IMG/VR virus record: IMGVR_UViG_3300033153_003417
Location: 1-27,366 of that record
Strand: one strand, 5' to 3'
DNA from: a virus
DNA: 27,366 nucleotides
The notes under the pieces were generated by a model, which worked only from the letters and a program-made list of their open reading frames with translations, was not told the DNA's origin and ran no database searches. Below, one piece after another: positions 4,456 to 27,366 of this stretch (the first letter of the stretch is position 1; each line of letters begins with the position of its first letter). The position numbers and the translations under genes are program-made.

Positions 4456-4463
4456 CCGGGGTT
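4446..4463. terminator. Weak bidirectional hairpin between converging genes
   Basis: AGCCCC (4446-4451) can pair with GGGGTT (4458-4463) around a 6-nt loop that contains the stop codon. No T-tract follows on either strand, so it is at best a weak terminator or pause site between the converging operons. Confidence 0.25.
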
Positions 4464-4947
4464 ATCGCATCACCAGAGAAGTAACAGGTAGTCCATTATG
4501 TCCAGGTCGCCAGATGATCAACACTGACCCTTTGTTATTCCCATTCACAGGTTTCCCAGTATCAGCATTGATGAAGCTGATCCGCCCAGAGATGAACCGC
4601 ATCTCACTCGCAGTATCCCAAGCTCTCTTGAACCATTTCACTGATGTGTCAGAAGGAACCAGCATCACCACCGTAGCACCTCCTCTTGCAGCTTCTACCG
4701 CCTTATCTACCCACGGACCTATGTTACTGTAAGGCGGGTTACACCAACACGCTACCGAAGGCCATACATTGTCACCCAGCGCGTTCATCTGCTCATCAAT
4801 ATAGAACGGTGCCAAGTGGTTGTGTTTTGAAGCAGCCACATCAATAGCAAAGTTAAACTCTTCATCAATCCGCTTGTAAAAAGAAGGAGGAGTCTGCCAC
4901 AGGTCTTTGATCTCTTTCGGAGTGTGAGATTTATGTTCGGTACTCAT
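4462..4947 (-). CDS. Phage DNA N6-adenine methyltransferase, 161 aa
   Basis: Transfers methyl from SAM to adenine N6 in DNA. The catalytic motif is C-N-P-P-Y-S-N-I-G-P-W at about residues 69-79. An N-terminal W-Q-T-P region and the F-A-I-D-V-A-A motif that helps bind SAM precede it, and a V-V-M-L-V-P strand and G-R-I-S-F follow. The length and motif order match the phage Dam family (the Dam/DNA_N6_MTase group of small single-domain enzymes). The start overlaps the stop of the primase-helicase by 4 bp (ATGA), so the two are coupled. It may protect phage DNA from restriction or time its replication. Confidence 0.88.
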   Translation of the reverse strand: MSTEHKSHTPKEIKDLWQTPPSFYKRIDEEFNFAIDVAASKHNHLAPFYIDEQMNALGDNVWPSVACWCNPPYSNIGPWVDKAVEAARGGATVVMLVPSDTSVKWFKRAWDTASEMRFISGRISFINADTGKPVNGNNKGSVLIIWRPGHNGLPVTSLVMR

Positions 4948-7529
4948 CTCACCACCTCCAACTGTGCAGCACCGCGTGCCTCTTTCATCTGACGCTCATA
5001 CTCATGGAACAAAGCATTAGAGTCCATGCTTGCATACTTCTCCTTGTTACGGACTACCCACAGCCGTATCGGTGTGCCGAGGTAGTACCCGTTCACCTGG
5101 GTGTACTTGCCAACTTGCCTGAGTGTCATGCCGACCTTCACCGGTGTGAAGAACTTCCCCTCAACATACATATAGGTCTGTGCGAACGCGTCCCCGTTGC
5201 GCAGGGTATCCGACATGTCACTGGCAGTTAAGATGTCACACTTGAACGCGCCTATCTTGTTCGTGACGAATGTCTCAAGAGTTTGTTGACTCGGTGACTT
5301 GGATGCCTCACGGATATCACGCAGGAACTGAGTCATCGGTGGTGCTTCAGCCGGGTTAAAGTCACTCAGGTCCACCACGTACATCAAGTGGTGCGTCACT
5401 GCTTTCCAGCCGTCTGCCTTCATCCAGTTCCACCGGTCTTCCCAGTAGTCCAGCCAGCCCCGTGTCATGTTGTCGTTATCATCCCTGACATTCAGGTCAG
5501 ACCACAGTGCCAGGAACCGACGTGAGGCGCTGTTCAATCGCAGCGGCATCAGACTGTTGGTGGTCATGGTGGCGTTGATGATGTTGCGTATCTTGATGGG
5601 CTTGATGCCCTTCTGGTTGACTCTCAATGTGTCCGGTGGAGCTGCGGCCAGGGGCTTGAGCTTGTTGCTCACGGCTATCGCTTCGCGCCGGTCACCCAGT
5701 TCAGCTTCATTGATGTGCAGGTACTTACTGGACAGCAGGTGATCGTCGAAGTCACGCAGCAGCTCATCCCCACTGATGACGGTGTAGTTATCCCCCATCG
5801 CCTTTGTCAGCGGGTACAGCAGGTAATCTTTGCCGCAACCCTCATTGCTACCCATCAGCAGCATGTGGTTGATCTTGCGATCAGGGTGACGCAGGGTGAA
5901 CGCCATCCATTGTTCGATATGCTTGCGGTAGGATCCCCACCCGAGTGCATCAAAGTGGTCATGCCACCGAGCGATGTCGCCCGGCGCACCCACTGACTGA
6001 CTGACATCAGACCAAGTGTTAGCGTAGACGATACCGTTATCAATGAAGGTCTGAGGTTGTTTCGGTGCGTAGTCCAGCCGATCAACCTTCTTCACCCGGC
6101 CATCTTGCAGAGCTATCTTCCTTGCCTCGGCATCCTCATGAGAGAAGCTGTTCTGAAACGCCTCAGTGCTGAAGAAGATGCGTGACTTGTAGTCGTAGAA
6201 TTGGTTCAACTCTTTAACATACACCACGTCATCATAGAACTCAGCGGTGCTCACCTTGTCACCGTACCACTGTTTGCGCAGGTCTTTGATGATGTCTTTG
6301 AAGTCACCCTTACCCCAACCCATGATGTCGCAGATGACGGTGTGCCAATGGTTCTGGTCGAGCTTCGGCATGTCATCGGTGTGCTTCAACACCTTTGCCG
6401 CCAGCTCACGCGCCGCCTTACTGGTAGGGTGCTCACGTCGCAGCCCATCGCACAGCATCTGTATCGCATCGAGGTCGGGCTCTGCTGGCGCAGTGACGGG
6501 TGCAGGCATGAAGCTGACTGGGGCTATAGGTGCAGCCACGGGCGTTTGGGTAGATGTGACTTGTGGCAGCATGAAGCTGGGCTCACTGACTGATGAGAAC
6601 TCTCGCATGATCTGCCAGTTCTTGAGTATCCCACTGAAACCGGGGGATTGCCCCTCGATATGTCGTAGTAGATCATGCCCGGTTCGACCTTGACATGCAC
6701 CGTGGTGACACTTGAACCCGATTGATCCGTCAGCGTTTGTAAACACTGCCGATCCGCTATCTTCTCCACCCGTATGCTCTTGAACCCATGGGCAGACAGC
6801 ATCAAATCGTCCATCAGAACGCACCTCTTTAATGTGAATGATATCGGGGATGTTCACCAATGGGTGATCGGACACATCAGCAGCACCATCGACCCGCGAC
6901 TCCCGGCGCACCCGGTCAAGGTCAACCATGAACGGTGCAGCCAGTTGCTCAATGGTCACACGGTTGAAGGGTTCCCATAAGGTCAGCTGACACTTGAACG
7001 GTAACCCATTCACCAACTTGGATGCTTTACTGTTGGAGCCTTCAGGCAGACGGACATAGCGTGTGACCCCCTTCATACCTGGATCACGACCCTGTGGTGC
7101 AAGACCGTTAGCCACCAACCCATCTAGCAGGTTCTCTACCTTGGCACGCTCAGTGCAAGGGGTATCGAGGATGTAACCCCACTGCTCTGACCCTTGTGAT
7201 GTCTCAAGCACCCATGCAGGGCGTGGCAGCTTCGACACCTCGGTCATTGACAGCTTCTCTTTCACATCATCCAGTACTATCACCGGTGTGTGTCTGAACA
7301 GAGCTTTACGGCGACGCGCCTGCCCCTGCTCATCAGCGTAGAAGTTGCTAATGGTGAAGTATTGATTGGTGCCGGGGGTCAGATTGTACCGGCTGAAATA
7401 GTCACCCTTCCACGCGATAAGGTGTTTGTCTTTTGGGATGTCACCAGGGTCATACGGGAAGTCAGTTATATGCACCCATGGCGCATCAACACCAAAGAGG
7501 GCGGTCAGGAATTCGTTATTTGTCACCAT
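4944..7529 (-). CDS. Primase-helicase, RepB-like primase plus D5/SF3-like helicase, 861 aa
   Basis: Primes and unwinds DNA at replication. The N-terminal part (about 1-200) contains I-V-L-D-D-V, then an E-T-S-Q-G-S-E-Q-W-G-Y motif and R-D-P-G-M-K-G-V-T-R-Y-V-R-L-P, typical of RepB-like primase domains. A CxHxxxC-like patch with C274, H275, H276 and C279 resembles a zinc site. A Pro/Ala-rich linker follows. The helicase part has Walker A GSNEGCGKD at about 560-568 and a downstream L-H-I-N-E-A-E Walker B. R-R-F further on may be an arginine-finger region. ATG 7529 is chosen over TTG 7556, with AAAAGAG eight bases upstream. It lies 13 bp after the 53-aa gene and is coupled to the methyltransferase. 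Confidence 0.88.
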   Translation of the reverse strand: MVTNNEFLTALFGVDAPWVHITDFPYDPGDIPKDKHLIAWKGDYFSRYNLTPGTNQYFTISNFYADEQGQARRRKALFRHTPVIVLDDVKEKLSMTEVSKLPRPAWVLETSQGSEQWGYILDTPCTERAKVENLLDGLVANGLAPQGRDPGMKGVTRYVRLPEGSNSKASKLVNGLPFKCQLTLWEPFNRVTIEQLAAPFMVDLDRVRRESRVDGAADVSDHPLVNIPDIIHIKEVRSDGRFDAVCPWVQEHTGGEDSGSAVFTNADGSIGFKCHHGACQGRTGHDLLRHIEGQSPGFSGILKNWQIMREFSSVSEPSFMLPQVTSTQTPVAAPIAPVSFMPAPVTAPAEPDLDAIQMLCDGLRREHPTSKAARELAAKVLKHTDDMPKLDQNHWHTVICDIMGWGKGDFKDIIKDLRKQWYGDKVSTAEFYDDVVYVKELNQFYDYKSRIFFSTEAFQNSFSHEDAEARKIALQDGRVKKVDRLDYAPKQPQTFIDNGIVYANTWSDVSQSVGAPGDIARWHDHFDALGWGSYRKHIEQWMAFTLRHPDRKINHMLLMGSNEGCGKDYLLYPLTKAMGDNYTVISGDELLRDFDDHLLSSKYLHINEAELGDRREAIAVSNKLKPLAAAPPDTLRVNQKGIKPIKIRNIINATMTTNSLMPLRLNSASRRFLALWSDLNVRDDNDNMTRGWLDYWEDRWNWMKADGWKAVTHHLMYVVDLSDFNPAEAPPMTQFLRDIREASKSPSQQTLETFVTNKIGAFKCDILTASDMSDTLRNGDAFAQTYMYVEGKFFTPVKVGMTLRQVGKYTQVNGYYLGTPIRLWVVRNKEKYASMDSNALFHEYERQMKEARGAAQLEVVR

Positions 7530-7542
7530 AATGAATGCTCTT

Positions 7543-7704
7543 TTAATTCTGCTCAATGATTTTTATAAGACTGTTGATGTTCACAACTGGTGTTGACCAC
7601 TCATCGCATCCGTACAATCTGTCACCGCCTACCCCCCTGCTCATTAACATGTCTTTGATGTCATTGAGTCTCCATAGAATATCTTTCTGCAATTCCTCAT
7701 CCAT
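7543..7704 (-). CDS. Small acidic protein, 53 aa, first gene of the minus replication operon
   Basis: Starts at ATG 7704 behind AGAGGTGACGACG, an excellent ribosome site, rather than at the upstream in-frame start at 7782. The product begins MDEELQKDILWRLNDIKDML, an amphipathic helix likely to form a coiled coil, followed by a Gly-rich turn. There is no known family. It is the promoter-proximal gene of the operon for the primase-helicase and methyltransferase, and ends 13 bp before the primase start. It could be a replication accessory or regulatory peptide; this is a guess from position. Confidence 0.6.
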   Translation of the reverse strand: MDEELQKDILWRLNDIKDMLMSRGVGGDRLYGCDEWSTPVVNINSLIKIIEQN

Positions 7705-15823: not shown

Positions 15824-16297
15824 TTATTTAGCAAACACCTTGAGAATGAGCGGCTCTAGGTTTTTAACTGCCCGTTCACCAAACAGAAACCCTAAGACCA
15901 GCATGTTAATAACAATGAGAGCAGTTTCTTGCTGCTCAGTGAATGCAGAATGCACACCGAAAAACCATTGGTAGTCCATATATAGGGTAGAGAACCCCCA
16001 AATAGGGCGCTGAGAGCCACGGGCGAATATGATCGGTTTACCCAACCAACCCATAGCAAGAAGGTCTTTAGCCGTACCCTCTTGCTCTGCGATCCTTTTA
16101 TCTAGCTGGACCCCTGCCTCTTGCAACAGCTTGTTTGCCTGCATCTCCTTGTCATGCAGCATCTTCTGCAACTTCATTTCCAGTTCAGCTTTCTGCTGTG
16201 GAGACATATCAGGCGGGAAGTAAGACATTACACCATCTTTGATCTCTTTAAATAGTCCACCACCTAGAAAGTCAGTAATACTTGATAGTACACCCAT
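15824..16297 (-). CDS. 3-TM-type holin, 157 aa
   Basis: Inner-membrane holin that times release of the endolysin. The N-terminal part (1-28) is weakly hydrophobic and the middle (about 32-75) is a charged helix. The end has R-G-S-Q-R-P-I-W-G-F (about 93-102), then a hydrophobic stretch and L-V-L-G-F-L-F-G-E-R-A-V-K (about 133-145). The RPxxG and FGxRxxxK patterns recall the gene-transfer-agent-type holin family (Holin of 3TMs). ATG 16297 is used rather than GTG 16300, with AAGGAGTAAGTG upstream. The start overlaps the endolysin's TGA, so the two are coupled. Confidence 0.82.
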   Translation of the reverse strand: MGVLSSITDFLGGGLFKEIKDGVMSYFPPDMSPQQKAELEMKLQKMLHDKEMQANKLLQEAGVQLDKRIAEQEGTAKDLLAMGWLGKPIIFARGSQRPIWGFSTLYMDYQWFFGVHSAFTEQQETALIVINMLVLGFLFGERAVKNLEPLILKVFAK

Positions 16298-16737
16298 CAC
16301 TTACTCCTTACGTCCCACCGAGCGGGACCGTTGGTTCGATTATCGAAGTGCGTCCGGTTGTGGTATCGACCTATCCCGTACTTGCCTGGGTACTTGGATT
16401 CAAGATAATCAGCAACACGGTCAGGGTCAACCTGCATCCCATTGGCACGATGAAATAACTTGAAGTCTACTGCTCTAGCATAGATATGTTGTGAATTTGC
16501 TGATCCACCAACAGATGCGTTATGTGTTACGCACCGGTTCGGGCCTGTGATAGCGATACGGATGTCGTATAATTCAATGGCAGTGATAGCGATACGGATG
16601 TCGTATAATTCAATGGCAGCGAAGTGGTCTGCGCAACCCTGAATGATTGGCGCAAGCTCAATATCAACGGTATCGAAGCCACACCCGCACTCACACGCGA
16701 ATTCAGATCTCGACAAATTATTTGTTAAGTCACCCAT
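16297..16737 (-). CDS. M15-family peptidase endolysin with internal 12-aa duplication, 146 aa
   Basis: Zn-dependent D-Ala-D-Ala-type peptidase (Peptidase_M15_3) that cuts peptidoglycan cross-links at lysis. Conserved marks: the N-terminal R-S-E-F-A-C-E-C-G-C-G opening, G-G-S-A-N-S-Q-H (H84), A-V-D-F (D91), and T-H-F-D (H130, D132). H84, D91 and H130 would hold the zinc. Residues 41-52 (AIELYDIRIAIT) repeat exactly at 53-64 because of a 36-bp tandem duplication. Without it the protein would be about 134 aa, close to the family's usual size. There is no signal peptide, so export depends on the holin just downstream. It overlaps the coiled-coil gene by 8 bp. Confidence 0.88.
   Translation of the reverse strand: MGDLTNNLSRSEFACECGCGFDTVDIELAPIIQGCADHFAAIELYDIRIAITAIELYDIRIAITGPNRCVTHNASVGGSANSQHIYARAVDFKLFHRANGMQVDPDRVADYLESKYPGKYGIGRYHNRTHFDNRTNGPARWDVRSK
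16547..16619 (-). repeat. Exact 36-bp tandem duplication in the endolysin gene
   Basis: Bases 16548-16583 and 16584-16619 are identical, and one more base matches on the left (16547). It is in frame and adds 12 codons. No other repeat is nearby. Exact identity points to a recent event, or to an assembly artefact. Confidence 0.95.
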
Positions 16738-16984
16738 GTTCTGTACCCCATTGAGTTTGCAGTGTTACCAGCTCTGCACGTAGAGTCTCTGCTTCATCCT
16801 CTAACGCAGAAAGAGAAGTATCGTCCTCTGGCTTACCGCGACCGATCCCCTTTGTGCGTAATGCACGAATAGAGAGAACATCAAGCTCAGATAGCCTGAT
16901 TTTTATCTCTTCAATACGCTGGTTGGCAAGAACGACATCTTCTGAAAGAGGCGGCGGAGCATTGCTTGTTGAAAAGGTGGGCAT
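16730..16984 (-). CDS. Coiled-coil tail/lysis-region protein, 84 aa
   Basis: A Pro/Ser-rich N-terminus precedes a helix EEIKIRLSELDVLSIRALR. A short Gly/Pro-containing hinge (G-I-G-R-G-K-P-E-D-D) leads to a second helix with L-E-D-E-A-E-T-L-R-A-E-L heptads, giving a helical hairpin. Small proteins of this form are often encoded between the tail fibre and lysis genes of podoviruses. I know of no assigned function. It could be a tail-fibre chaperone or a virion component. The start overlaps the tail-fibre stop by one base, and its end overlaps the endolysin by 8 bp. Confidence 0.65.
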   Translation of the reverse strand: MPTFSTSNAPPPLSEDVVLANQRIEEIKIRLSELDVLSIRALRTKGIGRGKPEDDTSLSALEDEAETLRAELVTLQTQWGTEHG

Positions 16985-18582
16985 TATTTGTCTCCCCTGT
17001 AAATTCTGACTTTAGTTCCTACAACTAAACCGGATGCCAGAGATGCTTGAAAAGTCACACTGGTTATATTGGTTACAGTAGCACTCTTCATCCATGCTCT
17101 AGTAGACAATGAGATATTACCACTCGCATTATAAGCATTCACAGAAGTAGCCATCGCATAACTTCCTACAACGTTTAAGTCTATTTGTGTTGCAGCTATA
17201 CCATAACTAGCAATTCTACCACTGTTAGACCGACTCCCCGCTACACTTGTAGATAATACCGTTAGTTGTTGAGAATTGTAATTGGTAGATGTAGTGTCCC
17301 CATTTACGAACATCTCTACTGTAGCTGTACCAGAATTAGGATGGGTGAATTCTATTCTATAACTTTTATGCTTATTTATATCTAGGTCAGATACAGTAAG
17401 GCTTGTTACGGCAGAGCCCGTCACTTCAAATTCTGCTAACAAAGAATGTGATGCAGGTTCAATAACATTTACACCATCTGTGATTAATAAAACAGACTCA
17501 CCTGCTAATACCGCAATACCAGTTCCTGATGACGTTTTAAATGTGAGAGTCTGTAATGTGTCATTCTGAGCAAAGAATGTACGCCCGGCGTCACTCACTT
17601 CAACATCAGTAGCACCTGTGAGAATTACACCGGTATCAGTAATAACCACACGACCACTGAGGTTCTGCGTAGCATTCAAAGTAAGAGTAGCATCAGTTAC
17701 TATGTTAATAGTGAGACTATTAGTGATTAAATTCTTCAAAAGGTCAGCAGCATTGGTGCCAATGTCAGTAGTGTTGGTTGCGATAAACCCAGCTAACTCA
17801 TCATTTACTTCCTGCTGAATAGACTTGGTGATGATTCCTGCCGGGGTATTACTGACGTTATTTGCTGACAATCGTTGTAGAACTGCGATGTTCCCGTTAG
17901 CCAGCTCATGATCAATCACACCGTCGAATGCTTGAGGGGAAACCACGTAATAGAAAGCCCAGTCACCATCACCTGCGGTACTGTAACCGCGAGTCTGCAC
18001 CATCACACCGGTGGGTAATGACTCAGCCTTCATCAAAGTTATGTTATCAAAAATAGCATCGACAGTGACAAGCTGAGGAGCACTAGATACAACCAAGTCA
18101 CCATTTGTATCAAACGTGAGATATTTACTCGCACGATCCGCAGCGACATCAGTCAGAAAGAAATCACCATCGAGGTCAATCGAATCCGTAAGCCTGAACG
18201 TGCGGTCGTTACTATCACGCAGCTGCTGAATGAGGAACGTGATGTGGTCCATCTGCTTCTCATGCACATCGGGAAAGAATCCGCCCTGGGAGGCGAATGC
18301 AGTCAGCTGGTTCTCGATGTAGTTAGACCGGATGTACCACTGATAGTCAGTCGGGAGGTTCCCGGCAATACGCAGTATTGTACCCCCCGCATCCTCGCCT
18401 ACATCATTAACGGTGTAGTCGGTATCGACCACTAAGAGAGTCTGCACCCCCGCGTCATCAGTCTCATACACCGAGAGCTGAGTCTTATCCGCAACCCTGA
18501 ACGTATAGGAGTAGGTGTCAGAGGCACCGTTGCCGACATACGGCCCTGATGTGATGTTAGTAGTATTGACAGTCAAGATCAT
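16984..18582 (-). CDS. Tail fibre/receptor-binding protein, 532 aa
   Basis: The N-terminal part resembles the podovirus (T7-type) tail-fibre adaptor: Y-S-Y-T-F-R-V, D-T-D-Y-T-V-N-D-V-G, G-x-I-L-R-I, and H-E-K-Q-M-D-H-I-T-F-L-I-Q-Q-L-R-D. This region binds the tail. The C-terminal half is rich in Thr, Asn and Val with beta-helix-like repeats and would contact the host surface. The DNA switches to more AT-rich near 17850 (about residue 240), consistent with an exchanged receptor-binding module. ATG 18582 follows TAGGAG. No lyase or glycanase motif is evident, so fibre versus enzymatic spike is open. Confidence 0.85.
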   Translation of the reverse strand: MILTVNTTNITSGPYVGNGASDTYSYTFRVADKTQLSVYETDDAGVQTLLVVDTDYTVNDVGEDAGGTILRIAGNLPTDYQWYIRSNYIENQLTAFASQGGFFPDVHEKQMDHITFLIQQLRDSNDRTFRLTDSIDLDGDFFLTDVAADRASKYLTFDTNGDLVVSSAPQLVTVDAIFDNITLMKAESLPTGVMVQTRGYSTAGDGDWAFYYVVSPQAFDGVIDHELANGNIAVLQRLSANNVSNTPAGIITKSIQQEVNDELAGFIATNTTDIGTNAADLLKNLITNSLTINIVTDATLTLNATQNLSGRVVITDTGVILTGATDVEVSDAGRTFFAQNDTLQTLTFKTSSGTGIAVLAGESVLLITDGVNVIEPASHSLLAEFEVTGSAVTSLTVSDLDINKHKSYRIEFTHPNSGTATVEMFVNGDTTSTNYNSQQLTVLSTSVAGSRSNSGRIASYGIAATQIDLNVVGSYAMATSVNAYNASGNISLSTRAWMKSATVTNITSVTFQASLASGLVVGTKVRIYRGDK

Positions 18583-18611: not shown

Positions 18612-21600
18612 TTAGTCACGCTTAGGACCAAACAGTAGTTCCTGGGTAGTAAATTCCTCACCTTCCTCGATAACGTCATACAGGTGCTCACCAGTAGACC
18701 ATGCCTGATTCATACCAGGGATACCGATTGCAGCGCCTACCAGCTTGCTGACATTCTTCAACTGACTCTTTGTGATCTCTTCATCAGTCAGCAAATTCTC
18801 GACCAACCCCTTGCCACTGGTGATGCCACGCTCCATCATGGCGGCGACCGGTGTTGAGTTATAACCGAAATCAGACAATGCACCGCTGGCTATGTCACGC
18901 ACGAAGGGTACAGATGTCAATGGGTATAGTGCGCTGGCAGTCAGGAACTTGCTCATACGCTCGTCCTCACCCTCGGGCTCATCCAGCTCACCACGCATCA
19001 GCATCTCAAAGAACACCGGCAGGGTGAACAGGAACATGGTTTTAGCGACAACAGTGGTCAGTGAGTATTGTCCCGACTTTGCACCCCGCGCCAGGTCGCG
19101 GGTCAAATTACCTAACGAGCTGAAGAAAGTCATGAACATGGTGAACGTACTGTGAATTTTAGACTGACTCCGCATGATGCGCGCCATGTCTTTAGTCGCA
19201 CCAGACCCCTGCACATTCTCGATTGTTGCATCAGCAAACTGAACAGCCTTGATTTCATTACCGTTCTCACTCAGATGCTTGTCGTAAGCCGCGTGCCATG
19301 TTGGCAAGTCGATCATGTAGGTCTGGATCAATGCGATATGCTTCATTGATGCTTCCTGCACAGCAGCCAGTGGACCTGTCTTTTTACTCAGGCGGTTCAT
19401 GGCGTTACGGATCTCACGATCCATTGTTTGTACTCGATGCGGCAGCACCTTAGACCGTTCATTGGCGAACTCCCAACCAGTCTGAAGGTCATCGGTGTTG
19501 CCCAGCAGCTTGCGTGCCGCCTTCATGTAGAACGCCCTACCGACAACCGTCTGCACACCCGCGATGGTGGGACCGACTCCCAACTCAGCAGCAGTGGTGA
19601 ATATGCCGAACAGCTGCATGATACCGGTTGACGCTTTGAACCCCATCACACCGAGCGTGGTGCCAAACCTTAACCGATGGAACGCCTCATCAATGAATGT
19701 CTTCACAGGTTGCTGCCTGCCATCTTTGGCGATGTCATTGAGCCACGGCTTCAACTCTTTGAACTCAGACTCGCCCAGTACAGCAGTGATGGCGTTAGCC
19801 ACATCAGGTGACTGTATCAGCCTGTTAACCTGGCGCACTGCGTCATGGTGGGTAATGTAGTGGATAGTCTCATTGAAGTGATCAGGAACCACCTCAAGAC
19901 TCAGATGAATGCGGTCATAGAAACCGGTACGCTCGTTAGTAGCGCCAGTGTTAACCGATGACTGTATGCTTGCTGTATTGTTGAACATCGATTCAGTTTC
20001 AGCTTCACGCTTCTCGGCATTCTTCTCCGCCTTGTGACTACGTTTCGGCGAATACTTCACCGGGTAGTATCCACCCTTGAGCGTGATGACTTCCCCATTA
20101 ACGACGACGGTGACAGGTGTGGCTTCAACTTTCGGTGGTGTGAGACCTGTTGTACGACGATGCACCTCGGCGAGCTGTGGGTATAGCGAATCCATCTGGT
20201 CCCATATCAGCTGCACCAGCTCCCAGTCACTCTTTGTCATGTGAGCCAGCACAGCTTGTAGCTTGGAGTTATTGAAGCTGATGTCTGCGTCATTCTCCGG
20301 GTCAGCCCAACCTTCACCGAGTAGTAGCTTTTTCAAGTTCCCCTGGTTCCCGGTGTTAAGCGCCACTGCGAGAACTCCGTGACCCATCAGGTTGTCGTTG
20401 ATTTCAGGGATAAATATCTTTGTGTTATGACGTTTGATGTCTTCCTTGCTTCGACCAGCGATGGCTTTAATCACCGGTGTAGCTACTTCATCAACCATGG
20501 TCATTTTAGCATCTAGTGCATCGGTGAACTGCTGAATCAATATGTCATGACTCATACCAACACGGTCACCACCATCAAGCCACGATGCAAGAAACGGGAT
20601 CTTTGTTAATTGTGATTGCCAGCGTTGGACATTCTCAAGCAGTGACGCTTTGCGTGAGTCATCGATTCGACTGCGACTGTCTTTAGTGGCGAAGCGTGCG
20701 TCCTGTTTTTCAATATGAGAGATCCAGTTCGACTTCAATTTATTGTAGTCAATCTCCTCCTGCATACCGACCATCTTGTTCGCGTACCGGGCAACGTGCT
20801 CAATGTTCTTCACCGAGTCATTGATACCCTGAAGGTCTGAGAACGGGACGTTCTTCCAGTGAGTCACATAGGATTCATTCAGTACAGCGTTTGACAGTAC
20901 CAGCCCGTCACCGTCGGTCTCCATGCGCTCCTTCATCCATGTGTTGAGGCTTTCAACCTCCTTCAATGTGGCTGACTTACGGAATTCAAAGCGGTCGAGG
21001 ATACGGGTGATCTGGTCCCAGTAACCCCCCTCAGCCTTCATGATCTCCTCACGCACCTTCTTCTTGTTGTACCGCGCCATACGGTCAACAATCTTGGTGG
21101 TCTCATTCTTCGCATCAGTCGCCGCCATGCCGAGGTAGTAGTTCATCACCTGGCGCATCTTGGCTCGTGCTGCACCCTCCTTGTTGCCCTCAGCCAGCAT
21201 CCGAGCAGACTCCTGTGCCGCTCTGATCTCAGCTTTACGGTATTTACCTGGGTGAATCTCACGGAATGACAGCTTACCGATGTTCGTCTCAGCGAGTGAC
21301 TTCATGGTGGTGCGGTCAGTCGTCGGTGCGTTGGTGCCTTTAGCGAGTGCTTTCAACTCACTCAGAATCAGCTTGCCGCGCTCCTCATTCTGCACCGCCT
21401 CATCAGCCTCACGCTCAATGGTGCCATCGGTGAGGATGTCACCGTGACGCTCCACCATGCGAGCCTCAGCATTGACCTCAGCTTGAACCTTGATGTTTGG
21501 CGCAGCGGCAAGGTCGTTCAGCATCTCAGAGCCTGAGCCATACCCGAAGAACGCAGCAGCCTCATCGGGGTGAACCCCTTTCATGCCCTTGGCAGTCATG

Positions 21601-24600
21601 CCGACCAGCTTAGGAGGTATCACGATGGAAGTGCGACCGAGCTTGTTTGTCTTCTCCTCACCCGCCATCTCTTTCACCGTGGCATGGTCGAGCTTGATGT
21701 TGACCTGTTCAGCCTGACGCTCTACTTCTTCTTTGTCCTGCTCGATTGAATCCATGTCATGTTCTATGGATTGAGACTCAGCAGTAACTTCTGGATTAAT
21801 GAAAGAGGTGTCATCAGACAGCATGTCAAAGACAACTTCAACCGCATCATTCGCGGTCAGGTTACCACCAGCGTACCCTTCTTCATTCAGCTTCTCAGCC
21901 AGGTCATCAGCAGTCATCCCACCTTTACGCGGGAACAGCGGCTTACCAAACACCTTAGATTTATCTTTGAAATGCTGAGGGTCAACACCTTCTCTCTCGA
22001 ATGACTCTCGGTTCAATCCACCTTTCTTTGAGATGAACTGACCGACAGTATCATTCTTCTTGTTCAGCTCAGTCAGTCGCGCATCAAGTTCCGCGATCTC
22101 TTTGTCGAGCCCGGCTATCGCCTCATCAAATGGTTTAGTAGGTATGACAGCACGCAACCTCTCACGCGCTGCGTAGACGCGTTGAGCTTTTAGGCTGTCA
22201 ATCTCCTCATCAATGATGTCCTGCTTCTCTTCCTTCCACCATGCTTTAGTCTGGCGGGTGAGCTGCTTTATAATCTTGTCACGCAGAGTCTCAGACTGTA
22301 CGTCCTTAGTCTTCTCCTGCTGCTTCTGATACTTGGTGAACTCCTCTTCAGTCATGCCGGCCATCGCCGCATCGGTGAACATCGGCTCGACCCTGGCACG
22401 CGCCTCAGCCGCTTGGATCTGCTCCTCGGTAGCCAGCAGACGGTCAAACACTTCACGCATCTCTTTGTCAAGGTCCACTCTAAGCTGACCACGCATTGAC
22501 TGATAGATGCGTGACAACCACCGTGCGAACGTCCTGAACGCGTTACGCAGCTCGATAGACGGCGCTTTACCTTCCATCAGGTAAGTCTCGAACCCGCGTG
22601 CAAACTGCTCATGCACAGCGCGACGGATGGCGTTGTCTTTGTCCTTATCACCGGTGGTCTTGTTGTCGAGGTAAGTGACTACATCAGCTTCAGTGATTGA
22701 ACCTTCTTTTGCTGTTGGTGGTTGGGTTGGTTGTGCAAATACATCTAACCTATTCCCAGGTATCAGTGCAACTTCATCAATCAAATTAGGGTAATCAGCA
22801 AGTACATATGAAGGTACAGGTGACCCTTGATATAACGCTCTTTTAACTACACCCCGGTGCAGTGGTTTCTGGTCTAAATTCTGATTTACTTGCACACCTT
22901 CCAGCGATGAAATCCGAGGCTCAATGGTAGCGTGGACCGCTTCAAATGAAGCCCACCGATATTCATTACCATCTTTATCAAAAGTAAATCTTAATACCGG
23001 ATCTCCTGCACCGGGCCTACCATGTTTTTTGATCGCCTCTTTCGTCATAGACGATAGGTCTGAAGATGTCGGATTTCTTACAACCTCAACTTTTTCAGAC
23101 CCTATCTTAATAAAAAATACTTCTGTCGATTTTAATTCAACAGGTTTTTCATATTCCTCTTTTGTTAATTGCCAAGGTTGTAACCCCTGCTTCAACGAAT
23201 CAAACCCCTCACCTAGATAACTATTCGCCTCAGCCGCCACATCCTCAGCATTACGCTTGTACCAGTTGTTGATGCTCTGAAGCATATCGGTGTCACCGTT
23301 AACCTCCATCTCATACATGAAGTGGGCGAACTCGTGCAGGAAGGTGCTCAGGTCCGCCGCTTCAGTTAGGCGAATGATACTGTTGGCCGGGTCGTAGTAG
23401 CCGCGTGCGTCAGGTTGCTTGTCGTCGCGTTGGAACAGCAACCTGCGCTGCTTTGCGATAACGTCAGCACGCGACCCTTCAGTCTTAGGGTCATAAGTCT
23501 TAATCTTCAGACCAGCGTCCTTCAGCACCTGTAGCGCATCCTTACGCATCCCACGCGGGACAACAGCCGTGTTGAACTCTTCAAACCCTACAGCACGCTG
23601 AATCTTCGCTTCAAAGTAACTGGTGGGTAATGCACTCAAGTATTCGAGTAAATCATCAACAATCTGTTGTGCTTCAGGAGTCATGTTGAATGTTTCGTTC
23701 AGACCCTTGCGACCTTCGACAATGGCAGAGCCAGCATCCTCACCGTACCCCCATGAGTCAGCGTCAAACTTATAAAATTCTTTTAGCGCCTCAAGTGCTT
23801 CCTGGAAGACATCAGAAGACTCTTCCTTGATTTTCGTCATGTCTTCTTCACTGACGATCTCATCACGCTTCGCCTGTATCTGAGCGATAGTCTTCATTTC
23901 ATTCGCGTATTTCGAGCGAACAGTTCCAGCACCATAGAAGGTAGACTCGCCAGCTTGTAACTGCTGCGTCATATCCTTTACAACATTCTGAAGGTTATAA
24001 TCGACGTACTTCCTGTTACCAGCAGGAGTGAATCCTTTGAATAGCTTCTTACCGGCGACCATCGAGTTAAACTTGTCAGTCACCCACTGCTCGTACTCGG
24101 TGCGGGTCTTCTTGACACGCATCTTTTTGGCGATGTCATCGCGTAGCTGGTGTACATCTTTCCCTCCCTCCTCACGGAAACGACGGACAGATGCTACCGC
24201 ATCACCCAATTTATCGCGTTTAATCACCCCATCTTTATCAAACCAGAAGCTGTCATACTTCTCACTGCGCGTAGGGTCAGAGCTTTCCATCTGATTGACA
24301 AGTGACCGATAATGGTCAGTAACTATCTTGATGAATCGTTTGTCTTCTGCCATCTCATATACGCTGAGACCAAGTTTTTCAGCCTTACGAATGTAAGGAT
24401 CAATCTTGGCATTCTTCAGCTTCGGAGCTTTACCCTGCTGCTGTAGCCAATGGTACTCAACAGCAGATGAACGCAGAAGGTTATCAGCACCGGATGTGTC
24501 TTCCAGCGAGTTGATATCAGGCTTACTCAGGCCAATGTTGTCAGGATCAAGTTGTTGATACAGCTCACTGTAGATGTCTTGGTCGATATCGTAAACTGCA

Positions 24601-27366
24601 CGCGGCTGACGCGGTGAGTAGATGTCAGCATCAAAGGTACGTGCTTTGGGGTCTTCAAGGAGTGAAGGGTCAGCAAGTAGAGTCACCTCACCGAAACCGG
24701 TGAAGTCGGAGACATCAGCGCGTGCTACGGCAATGGACGGTGCAGCCAGCCCACCAAGACCTTCCGCTGCAAGAATGTTCTCAGCACTGAGGTTGTGGGC
24801 TACGAAGAGGTTCTGTTGTACTGGTTGCGCAAACGGCTCAAGCAGCAGACCAACATCCTCTTCCTGCTTGGTGGCTGTAGCACCCTCAAGGAGAATGACC
24901 CAGTTCAGGTCTTTAACAAGAATGCCGTCATGCCCTGCATCGATGAATGACTCACGACGCTCTGCCATCTGCTCAGCAGTTATATCACCGGTGGTAGCAG
25001 ACTCAAACACATCTTGCTCAATCACCAAGGGGTTATTCAGTGTGAACTCCCACACACCGACCTCGTTACCGTACCGCTGTGCATTACCAACATCAGCAGC
25101 ACCAAGGTAATGGCCGAGGAACGCACTAGGGGTGTCAGTACCTGCTCCTATCTTGGTGTCGTCGAAAGTGGGGAAGTCGCTACGTGAGCGACGGACGAAT
25201 GTTACTGTTTCGCCTGCTTTGGCTCGGTTGAATTCGGCCAGAGCTTCTTCGTCAGTTCTTCTCTTCGCTTCTTCGATAGCGGCTTGTCGGGCTTTTCTTC
25301 GCTCTCGATCACGTTCAAGTTCTTGTCTAGCATCTTCATCGATTACTCCTGGTTGTGCTAATAGTGTAGCACGTTGTGGGACATTGGCAACTGTATCAAT
25401 CTCCGGCGAAACGAACCAATCTACCCCCTCTATATTTTCAAGTAGATCTATGAGTCGTTCTTCTAGTTCGACCACATCTAAATTGTTAAAGTCTCCAGTA
25501 GCGGCGGGGTTAGTCTTCACTAATATATCAATGTCACTTTTACCGGGTCTCTGAGTACCTTTAGCACGAGATCCTACCAGATACACACCGTCATAAACTT
25601 CATCAGGTAATCCAGCTTTCTTGATTTCTTCTTTGAATATCTTCGATGCTTTTTTAGCGGCCTTCTTTGCTTTTATCCGTGCACCAGCTGCCTCTGCTTC
25701 AACCGCTTGACTAGGGAGTTTCTGTTTTAAGTCATGAAGCTGCTGACGTTCCTCTTCGGTTAATAACTCTAAGTCGGTCTGCACAAGCTCAGGGGGGATG
25801 ACACCTGCGTCTTTTTCTGACTCGATTCTACGCTCTTTAATTAACGTATCGAATTTAGCTAACCCTGTTTGAATTTCATCGATATCAAGCCGCTCAGGCT
25901 GCTCCAACACCAACTCACCCTCAAGACGCGCACGCTCACCGGTCTGTGGACCCTCGACAGTGAACCCGAAGCTCTGATATGCCTCTGCCACCGTGATACC
26001 TTCACGTTTTGCTTTCGCTGTGAAGTACGCAGGAGCTAGATTTGTCATTACACGGGCTTGTTCAGGTGCATAAGCCCCCGTGTCAACAAGACTGTTGAAT
26101 ATCTGCTCTGATATCTCCTGTGCCTCAACGTACTCGCTGGCACTCTCCTGCGCCTCCTCCATCAGCACCCTGACGTAACTCTCAGTCTCCTGCTGCGCCT
26201 GCTCCTGCCTGAACGGTGAAGTGGTCTCATCACTCATGGTCATGCTGTCACGCAGCTGCTTATAGTGCTCAGTACCTGCGATGTCAGCGGCGAAGTCAGC
26301 CACCGGTACCTGAACATCAACACCCAGGGCAGCAGCCTCACGCGCCTGTTCTGATAACAGCTTCAGCGCCGGGTCAGCTTCAATCTCCTCAGCGGTCTTG
26401 TCTTGCAGGTACAGAGAGGTCTGTGCACCGTCGATGAACACATGAGTGTTACTGTCACCGTCAGCCTTCTCGACGAACTGTCTGAATGACTCCTTGTTGA
26501 GATTGTTTGTCTCTGACTGGGTTGCCATCTCGTTGAGTTTGTCCAGCTTATCCTGCTCAATGGCACCCTTCGTATCCTTGACATTCTCATCTCTGGCAAT
26601 CTTGCCGACGGTGTACTGAGTCCCACTGGTGACCACACCTGCACCGAAACCACCAAGGCCAGATGCAAGTATCCCTTCACTCAGCTTCTTCTCAGGGTCA
26701 AAGGTTATCTTCTCAGCCAAGTTGGTGTTAGCCGCCTGAGCTGATTCCGTAGCAAACTCTTTAATACCAGTGGTGAGCACCGATAGGAACGAGTTACCCG
26801 CTTCACCTTTCAGCAGTGCATCAGGGACAAACTTCTCAAGAATAGAGTTGACGATACCGACTTGAGCCTGTGCCTGCATGAACTCAACATCATCAATCTT
26901 CTCACCGGTTCGTGCTTCAAAATCAGCCGCATTACTAGCGACTTCCATTGACTCCATCCACGCCATAAACGGGATTGAGCCACCAGACGCATACGCGGTG
27001 ACAAGGGATGGGACAGCTTGACCGAGGAACCCCGACATAGCCACAGGGTCAGTTGCGATATCGATCACACCAGCCAGGTCACCCCCCATAGCAGCGACGA
27101 ACGCAGTATCAGCGCGCTTCGCTGACTCAAGGTTAGCTTTGAATGGTTCAAACTCTTCACTCAGGATCTGCTGAGACTCACTGATTCTCCCGGCGATAGC
27201 AGTACCACCACCTGTGCGAATGTCTGTGCCAGGTATCTGACCTGCACCGAGGAAGTCAGCAACGGATTCAATCGCCCGGATAGGGTTAAGTGCACGAGGT
27301 AACCCGGTGGTGTCCTCAAGTGACTCAGACAGCCCACGAGTCCAGCGACGAACAGCATCAGGGGTA
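18612..27366 (-). CDS. Giant polyvalent virion-type protein, partial (start beyond window)
   Basis: The frame is open from the window edge to TAA at 18612-18614, at least 2,917 residues. The ATG at 27089 is merely internal: in-frame coding continues upstream of it. In protein order: a helical Glu/Gln-rich region; a nucleotidyltransferase with GSRAKG and SDIDILV (25574-25518); an ART-like segment with N-N-P-L-V-I and G-H-D-G-I-L-V (about 25215-24880); an LPD-like N-L-F-V-A-H-N-L-S-A-E-N motif (about 24812); a zincin HEFAH (23336-23322) with a late V-H-E-Q-F-A-R-G-F partner (about 22625); long Lys/Glu-rich coiled coils; and a hydrophobic end (about 19060-18985). The layout matches phage polyvalent proteins co-injected with DNA. 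No T7/N4-type RNA polymerase motif is seen. It is likely virion-borne and acts in the new host cell. Confidence 0.85.
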   Translation of the reverse strand, partial: TPDAVRRWTRGLSESLEDTTGLPRALNPIRAIESVADFLGAGQIPGTDIRTGGGTAIAGRISESQQILSEEFEPFKANLESAKRADTAFVAAMGGDLAGVIDIATDPVAMSGFLGQAVPSLVTAYASGGSIPFMAWMESMEVASNAADFEARTGEKIDDVEFMQAQAQVGIVNSILEKFVPDALLKGEAGNSFLSVLTTGIKEFATESAQAANTNLAEKITFDPEKKLSEGILASGLGGFGAGVVTSGTQYTVGKIARDENVKDTKGAIEQDKLDKLNEMATQSETNNLNKESFRQFVEKADGDSNTHVFIDGAQTSLYLQDKTAEEIEADPALKLLSEQAREAAALGVDVQVPVADFAADIAGTEHYKQLRDSMTMSDETTSPFRQEQAQQETESYVRVLMEEAQESASEYVEAQEISEQIFNSLVDTGAYAPEQARVMTNLAPAYFTAKAKREGITVAEAYQSFGFTVEGPQTGERARLEGELVLEQPERLDIDEIQTGLAKFDTLIKERRIESEKDAGVIPPELVQTDLELLTEEERQQLHDLKQKLPSQAVEAEAAGARIKAKKAAKKASKIFKEEIKKAGLPDEVYDGVYLVGSRAKGTQRPGKSDIDILVKTNPAATGDFNNLDVVELEERLIDLLENIEGVDWFVSPEIDTVANVPQRATLLAQPGVIDEDARQELERDRERRKARQAAIEEAKRRTDEEALAEFNRAKAGETVTFVRRSRSDFPTFDDTKIGAGTDTPSAFLGHYLGAADVGNAQRYGNEVGVWEFTLNNPLVIEQDVFESATTGDITAEQMAERRESFIDAGHDGILVKDLNWVILLEGATATKQEEDVGLLLEPFAQPVQQNLFVAHNLSAENILAAEGLGGLAAPSIAVARADVSDFTGFGEVTLLADPSLLEDPKARTFDADIYSPRQPRAVYDIDQDIYSELYQQLDPDNIGLSKPDINSLEDTSGADNLLRSSAVEYHWLQQQGKAPKLKNAKIDPYIRKAEKLGLSVYEMAEDKRFIKIVTDHYRSLVNQMESSDPTRSEKYDSFWFDKDGVIKRDKLGDAVASVRRFREEGGKDVHQLRDDIAKKMRVKKTRTEYEQWVTDKFNSMVAGKKLFKGFTPAGNRKYVDYNLQNVVKDMTQQLQAGESTFYGAGTVRSKYANEMKTIAQIQAKRDEIVSEEDMTKIKEESSDVFQEALEALKEFYKFDADSWGYGEDAGSAIVEGRKGLNETFNMTPEAQQIVDDLLEYLSALPTSYFEAKIQRAVGFEEFNTAVVPRGMRKDALQVLKDAGLKIKTYDPKTEGSRADVIAKQRRLLFQRDDKQPDARGYYDPANSIIRLTEAADLSTFLHEFAHFMYEMEVNGDTDMLQSINNWYKRNAEDVAAEANSYLGEGFDSLKQGLQPWQLTKEEYEKPVELKSTEVFFIKIGSEKVEVVRNPTSSDLSSMTKEAIKKHGRPGAGDPVLRFTFDKDGNEYRWASFEAVHATIEPRISSLEGVQVNQNLDQKPLHRGVVKRALYQGSPVPSYVLADYPNLIDEVALIPGNRLDVFAQPTQPPTAKEGSITEADVVTYLDNKTTGDKDKDNAIRRAVHEQFARGFETYLMEGKAPSIELRNAFRTFARWLSRIYQSMRGQLRVDLDKEMREVFDRLLATEEQIQAAEARARVEPMFTDAAMAGMTEEEFTKYQKQQEKTKDVQSETLRDKIIKQLTRQTKAWWKEEKQDIIDEEIDSLKAQRVYAARERLRAVIPTKPFDEAIAGLDKEIAELDARLTELNKKNDTVGQFISKKGGLNRESFEREGVDPQHFKDKSKVFGKPLFPRKGGMTADDLAEKLNEEGYAGGNLTANDAVEVVFDMLSDDTSFINPEVTAESQSIEHDMDSIEQDKEEVERQAEQVNIKLDHATVKEMAGEEKTNKLGRTSIVIPPKLVGMTAKGMKGVHPDEAAAFFGYGSGSEMLNDLAAAPNIKVQAEVNAEARMVERHGDILTDGTIEREADEAVQNEERGKLILSELKALAKGTNAPTTDRTTMKSLAETNIGKLSFREIHPGKYRKAEIRAAQESARMLAEGNKEGAARAKMRQVMNYYLGMAATDAKNETTKIVDRMARYNKKKVREEIMKAEGGYWDQITRILDRFEFRKSATLKEVESLNTWMKERMETDGDGLVLSNAVLNESYVTHWKNVPFSDLQGINDSVKNIEHVARYANKMVGMQEEIDYNKLKSNWISHIEKQDARFATKDSRSRIDDSRKASLLENVQRWQSQLTKIPFLASWLDGGDRVGMSHDILIQQFTDALDAKMTMVDEVATPVIKAIAGRSKEDIKRHNTKIFIPEINDNLMGHGVLAVALNTGNQGNLKKLLLGEGWADPENDADISFNNSKLQAVLAHMTKSDWELVQLIWDQMDSLYPQLAEVHRRTTGLTPPKVEATPVTVVVNGEVITLKGGYYPVKYSPKRSHKAEKNAEKREAETESMFNNTASIQSSVNTGATNERTGFYDRIHLSLEVVPDHFNETIHYITHHDAVRQVNRLIQSPDVANAITAVLGESEFKELKPWLNDIAKDGRQQPVKTFIDEAFHRLRFGTTLGVMGFKASTGIMQLFGIFTTAAELGVGPTIAGVQTVVGRAFYMKAARKLLGNTDDLQTGWEFANERSKVLPHRVQTMDREIRNAMNRLSKKTGPLAAVQEASMKHIALIQTYMIDLPTWHAAYDKHLSENGNEIKAVQFADATIENVQGSGATKDMARIMRSQSKIHSTFTMFMTFFSSLGNLTRDLARGAKSGQYSLTTVVAKTMFLFTLPVFFEMLMRGELDEPEGEDERMSKFLTASALYPLTSVPFVRDIASGALSDFGYNSTPVAAMMERGITSGKGLVENLLTDEEITKSQLKNVSKLVGAAIGIPGMNQAWSTGEHLYDVIEEGEEFTTQELLFGPKRD

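Follow-up and report, generated by a model that had tools for sequence, protein, structure and literature searches.

The window analyzed here is the viral record IMGVR_UViG_3300033153_003417 itself, a fragment of 27,366 bases. It contains a minus-strand reading frame (18612..27365) of 2,917 open codons which runs past the window edge at its 5' end. An earlier note on this DNA had remarked that the ATG at 27089 is preceded by 92 open codons reaching to the edge, and that the protein exceeds 2,917 residues with its N-terminus outside the window. Frame analysis bears out the first point and the relatives agree with the second. Residues 1-93 can be aligned with two of them (L012, 57% over residues 1-568; L031, 46%), so the codons upstream of this ATG are genuinely coding. 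Where a relative is complete at its N-terminus, its first Met is mostly found 110-160 codons ahead of residue 1 of the window protein, i.e. beyond the edge, from which a full length of ~3,030-3,080 residues, about 3,050, can be estimated. The gene lies beside tail genes, as previously stated: a tail fibre gene adjoins it, and an endolysin gene is a neighbour (Table 1). Elsewhere in the window, positions 4462-7556 of the minus strand hold an 870-residue ORF with a TTG start and a 161-residue ORF.

The comparison set consisted of 61 IMG/VR loci and of cultured phages. Table 1 gives the resulting map: a carrier made of an N-terminal module, a zincin and a C-terminal domain, interrupted at three positions that are referred to as slots 1 to 3.

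Table 1. Features of the giant gene and its neighbours in the window. Residues are numbered on the window protein.
Feature	Residues	Position	Strand	Basis
Gene of the giant polyvalent protein, truncated 5' at the contig edge		18612..27365	-	2,917 codons present
Conserved N-terminal carrier module	1-489	25899..27365	-	homology to relatives
Junction tag LEQP, left edge of slot 1	487-490	25896..25907	-	pattern
Pol-beta type nucleotidyltransferase, slot 1	592-659	25389..25592	-	Pfam NTP_transf_2
Junction tag LAQP	669-672	25350..25361	-	pattern
ART-like module, slot 1	~690-845	24831..25298	-	relatives in 9 loci; hhalign
Codon CGT (Arg725) in ART-like module	725	25191..25193	-	comparison with nine relatives
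Junction tag FAQP	845-848	24822..24833	-	pattern
PBECR5 predicted RNase domain, slot 1	850-1040	24246..24818	-	Pfam
Helical domain of unknown function, slot 1	1041-1309	23439..24245	-	homology
Junction tag LFQR, right edge of slot 1	1310-1313	23427..23438	-	pattern
Zincin metallopeptidase, split by slot 2	1314-1395 + 1551-1738	22152..23426	-	motif, alignment
Slot 2 insert in zincin, unknown fold	1396-1545	22731..23180	-	GC3 0.27
Junction tag FAQP, right edge of slot 2	1543-1546	22728..22739	-	pattern
Slot 3 insert, ~150 residues	1739-1888	21702..22151	-	length comparison with relatives
Conserved helical C-terminal carrier domain	1889-2917	18615..21701	-	PHROG 9880
Tail fibre gene, adjoins giant gene		16984..18582	-	tail PHROG matches over the first ~125 residues
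Endolysin gene, neighbour		16297..16737	-	homology

The domain list of the earlier note was right on the nucleotidyltransferase and the zincin, and had overlooked both the PBECR5 domain and the slot structure. The nucleotidyltransferase matches Pfam NTP_transf_2 with 34 bits (cut-off 21) and shows the features of the Pol-beta class, with the GS...DxD pattern present as GSRAKG at 598 and SDIDIL at 610; PADLOC returned weak nucleotidyltransferase matches only. GC3 of residues 490-680, the region around this domain, is 0.33, compared to 0.55-0.69 in the carrier, and neither 50,697 phage records nor a pattern scan of IMG/VR yielded a relative. A low GC3 together with no detected relative fits a recent arrival of this region.

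The ART-like segment, also named previously, stands through its relatives and not by a Pfam match of its own. The window module has no match to PF18760 (ART-PolyVal), and its best relative (L010) reaches 17.1 bits with this model, below the cut-off of 31.2. Profile comparison with hhalign relates the family to a mostly Pfam-confirmed ART-PolyVal set (95% probability, E 4e-8). Because the PF18760 cut-off is missed, yet the profiles are related, the module is classified as one that would work like ART-PolyVal, not as a full member. The strand-1 His of ART is present in all nine relatives; the window has Arg725 at this position of the H-Y-D active site, so the ART of the window phage may be inactive or altered. 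Since a single base change would suffice, a sequencing error at this codon is possible. PBECR5 (PF18814) scores 43.8 bits (cut-off 25) and is present in 13 relatives, and the helical domain that follows it is found together with PBECR5. The AlphaFold model of cargo and zincin was of low confidence (pLDDT 65, pTM 0.37) and had no PDB match, and was set aside.

The zincin is supported, though no Pfam model matched this region of the window. It carries the motif HEFAH at 1344-1348 and a candidate third ligand, Glu1593; H1344, E1345, H1348 and E1593 are invariant in the alignments, and HExxH is kept in 26 of the 26 zincins of the final alignment. Slot 2 falls between two metal-binding helices, one with HExxH and the other with the Glu, and measures ~3-26 residues in most relatives and 155-416 in 17. 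Its insert in the window is a plausible recent arrival because of its low GC3 (0.27, compared to 0.55-0.69 in the carrier). Slot 3 measures 8-30 residues in most relatives and 142-170 in eight. The slot-3 module recurs in the 3,130-residue giant of Vibrio phage 1.205.O (L074:7186-16578). About 100 records of Vibrio phages, roughly 60 kb in size, carry it as well.

At the N-terminal end of the carrier, LPD22 is present in 45 of the 45 N-terminally complete relatives; the contig edge removes the matching part from the window. The last 1,030 residues of the protein correspond to PHROG 9880 and are helical. The "hydrophobic C-terminus" previously proposed for this part is weak: there is a single clear hydrophobic stretch (2772-2790), and the mean hydropathy of residues 2550-2917 is -0.16. 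This domain gave no significant PDB profile match or fold match among solved structures, and PDB sequence searches yielded nothing significant. At E<=0.001 the predicted fold of the C-terminal domain matches 75 models of viral proteins, and several of these are named LPD, ART-PolyVal, MuF-C or nuclease proteins.

Between matched points, length varies by 0.9% in the N-module, 0.5% in the second zincin half and 1.3% in the C-terminus, compared to 53% in slot 1, which ranges from 13 residues (MZH0603) to 1,588 (L059). Judged on sequence, the giant protein is a fixed carrier with three positions taking swappable foreign modules. One continuous chain is dispensable, since some relatives split the carrier: in L039 (8696-21875) and L035 (8-15187) one gene encodes the N-module and another the zincin-C-terminal half, and several smaller, unnamed genes occupy the place of slot 1 between them.

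The cargo turns over rapidly. L034 and L056 share 96-99% DNA identity over about 14.5 kb around the giant gene, and their slot-1 cargo (about 440 and 640 codons) shows no similarity, with sharp borders. Among pairs at 80-90% C-terminal identity, 57% have less than a quarter of their slot-1 cargo in common. On a quick tree of the C-terminal domain, in which some branches are long, the presence of PBECR5 (13 carriers among 43 proteins) takes 12 changes. The cargo is independent of carrier descent, because PBECR5 needs these 12 changes and close C-terminal pairs differ. The same module was found in slot 2 of L016 and slot 1 of L017, at 72% identity. This turnover bears on the claim that the combination of domains may be new: the claim is true and carries little weight, each named enzyme domain being already listed for polyvalent proteins. 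An unseen combination is to be expected because slot contents change even between near-identical phages.

Pfam census of 56 slot-1 segments gave the following distribution: ART-PolyVal 24, PBECR5 14, GNAT 10, GGDEF 6 and RadC 3, with single occurrences of kinase, zeta toxin, PBECR1 and LPD23. By the same means, ART-PolyVal was identified in 9 of 27 slot-2/3 inserts. GGDEF-like cargo with the motif ISGDEF/VSGDEF is present in slot 1 of L012, L017, L027, L033 and L042, and is a possible candidate for an injected cyclic-nucleotide synthase. For all cargo modules the enzymes named are predicted ones, including the ART of the window without its expected His. Two scans of genome contigs with a few peptide patterns returned no prophage relatives, an absence that such scans support weakly.

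The position of the giant gene was then considered together with its neighbours. Head and ejection genes are located upstream of it in relatives. In Vibrio phage 1.185.O a gene of the T7_gp14 family (Pfam 3.5e-14) is followed by that of a 543-residue protein, by the giant and then by the tail genes, and a relative of the 543-residue gene directly precedes the giant in 48 loci. The order gp14-gp15-gp16 is that of podovirus ejection protein genes (PMC8954989); a T7 gp14-like gene and a ~540-residue gene upstream thus put the giant in the gp16 position, implying ejection. As a separate observation, the 543-residue gene (L002:11290-12918) matches the N-terminal part of the BPP-1 transglycosylase protein family, PHROG 10475; Pfam search of this gene revealed no transglycosylase domain.

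We consider it likely that the protein is a large ejection protein of a BPP-1-like podovirus, in the gp16 position, and acts as a carrier with three slots for exchangeable modules. The carrier, composed of LPD22 and the N-terminal module, the zincin and the 1,030-residue helical C-terminus, would be loaded into the head and driven through the tail along with the DNA, as gene order and the known class suggest. The giant protein is probably packaged in the virion and injected into the bacterium. We found no virion proteomics for family members; the BPP-1 paper identified two capsid proteins only. Once inside, the cargo modules, many of them predicted enzymes, would act on host molecules at an early stage of infection by modifying or cleaving them, and the identity of their domains points to a role in counter-defence or host takeover. 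A structural tail or tape-measure-like protein, with enzyme-like domains that have decayed and have no effector role, could also adjoin tail genes and would account for the replaced strand-1 His of the window ART. However, PBECR5 and the nucleotidyltransferase score above cut-off, the zincin motif is intact and the kinds of module present are those usual for conflict enzymes, which makes this alternative very improbable.

Most of the modules are bordered by short tags ending in a Gln. In the window protein the pattern [LF][EAF]Q[PR] has five occurrences (487, 669, 845, 1310 and 1543), which coincide with the five borders drawn by homology. With patterns picked after the data were seen and junctions that are related by descent, a hydrophobic-x-Gln tripeptide is located within the 20 residues adjoining the slot-1 junctions in 91% of cases on the left and 89% on the right (non-redundant), against a background of 21% of windows inside cargo or the C-terminal domain and 44% in the N-module; under the same reservation, slots are enriched versus shuffles in LLAQ (13 against 0.85) and LLFQ (6 against 0.55). 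Descent alone is insufficient to explain the right-hand tags, because such tags occur on unrelated module types. Right ends bear a tag in 13 of 17 cases for slot 2 and in 0 of 9 for slot 3. A universal polyvalent feature is ruled out, as N4 gp50 and the 1.205.O giant show no enrichment of the pattern.

Several functions can be envisaged for these tags. They could be traces of cassette swapping, i.e. short shared sequences for recombination, and no protease sites. This agrees with L034 and L056, where the tags VLTQ on the left and Q-NQPDTGG on the right exactly bound the exchanged cargo, and with MZH0603, whose empty slot 1 retains one tag, VLTQPDTSGARGYYDP. Few codons are in common, however, right-hand tags vary by module type, and longer conserved flanks (GPQTGE..., ARGYYDP) would be better suited to recombination; we find this explanation somewhat unlikely. 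Alternatively, the tags possibly mark candidate cut sites of the chain. The protein would then be a polyprotein: an ejected, constant carrier whose exchangeable effector cassettes terminate in hydrophobic-x-Gln tags. In this speculative scheme the embedded zincin would cut at or near the tags and free the modules in the cell or in the head. We put the polyprotein forward tentatively and consider it unlikely; we know of no preference of zincins for Gln. A third view is that the giant is ejected whole and uncut, in which case the zincin would itself act as an effector or be a structural remnant, with the Gln tags serving only as linkers or domain caps. It is in line with N4 vRNAP, which has a similar layout and is packaged unprocessed according to PMC5512222, and with the lack of tag enrichment in N4 gp50 and the 1.205.O giant. 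It fits less well with the same kind of tag (LLFQ, IFKQ, LLAQ, FAQ) ending unrelated modules, and with split-gene relatives, where the two halves are evidently able to exist as separate chains. On balance we give ejection of an uncut chain a little less than an even chance.

Processing of polyvalent proteins by the zincin was proposed in the 2017 survey (PMC5512222), and we found no cut site named in it. The present family supplies a defined candidate site at predictable positions for this idea. With this site, the empty slot of MZH0603, the matched swaps and the cultured members, ideas on processing and delivery become directly testable. If the polyprotein reading is true, ejection of a single chain would provide several free enzymes; a carrier able to take up any module at a fixed position would be a natural scaffold for phage-to-bacterium protein delivery. 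The slots are also a place to seek further early counter-defence enzymes, since what they contain changes rapidly and in many cases matches no Pfam model.

At least two enzyme domains, unrelated in their chemistry, are joined in this protein, and it is encoded among virion genes, which confirms its assignment by the earlier note to the large phage polyvalent proteins. These were described as a class in 2017 by Iyer et al. (PMC5512222). The proteins of that survey are alike in being very large chains of unrelated enzymes encoded beside virion genes, and have in common with the giant the zincin, ART, PBECR and Pol-beta NTase domains, and with its N-terminally complete relatives LPD22. The survey found the nucleotidyltransferase domain mainly in firmicute conjugative elements; its setting in a phage is somewhat unusual. 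It reports a domain network, variable zincin inserts and possible cassette recombination in one kinase-bearing group, and the passages considered here contain no description of a constant carrier with three fixed slots or of Gln-ending junction tags, nor any account of swaps between near-identical phages. The unexpected part is the carrier-and-slot design with its junction tags, rather than the particular domain mix.

Among individual systems, Bbp10 of BPP-1 is a direct homologue, whose N-module, zincin and C-terminal pieces share 25-43% identity with the giant; it has the same gene position and an HESGH zincin. It differs by its size (2,052 residues) and short slot 1 (180 residues), and its upstream gene is annotated with a transglycosylase whereas the Vibrio phage gene has none in Pfam. 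The layout of N4 vRNAP, i.e. N-terminal domain, enzyme, HExxH domain and 110-kDa helical domain (PMC12633501), is the same, N4 gp50 having an HExxH domain and a helical end of about 1,100 residues in a three-gene operon (150, 644 and 3,500 residues; PMC12633501). Unlike the giant, N4 gp50 has an RNA polymerase as its enzyme and no enrichment of the tag pattern. Homology to the N4 vRNAP C-terminus (zincin and C2 region) was not significant (hhalign probability 4% and 0.4%). T7 gp16 is likewise encoded behind a gene of the gp14 family and that of a mid-sized protein. No transglycosylase domain was found in the giant, and no sequence or fold match indicated a T7 gp16 homologue, so that only gene position agrees. 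N4 vRNAP and T7 gp16 are likenesses and not memberships, because homology tests found none. Finally, the T4 internal proteins (IPI etc.) similarly join a conserved packaging element to highly diverse, injected, defence-inhibiting cargo (PMC3012670), but they are small, separate and matured by proteolysis in the head, whereas the giant is one chain with its own zincin.
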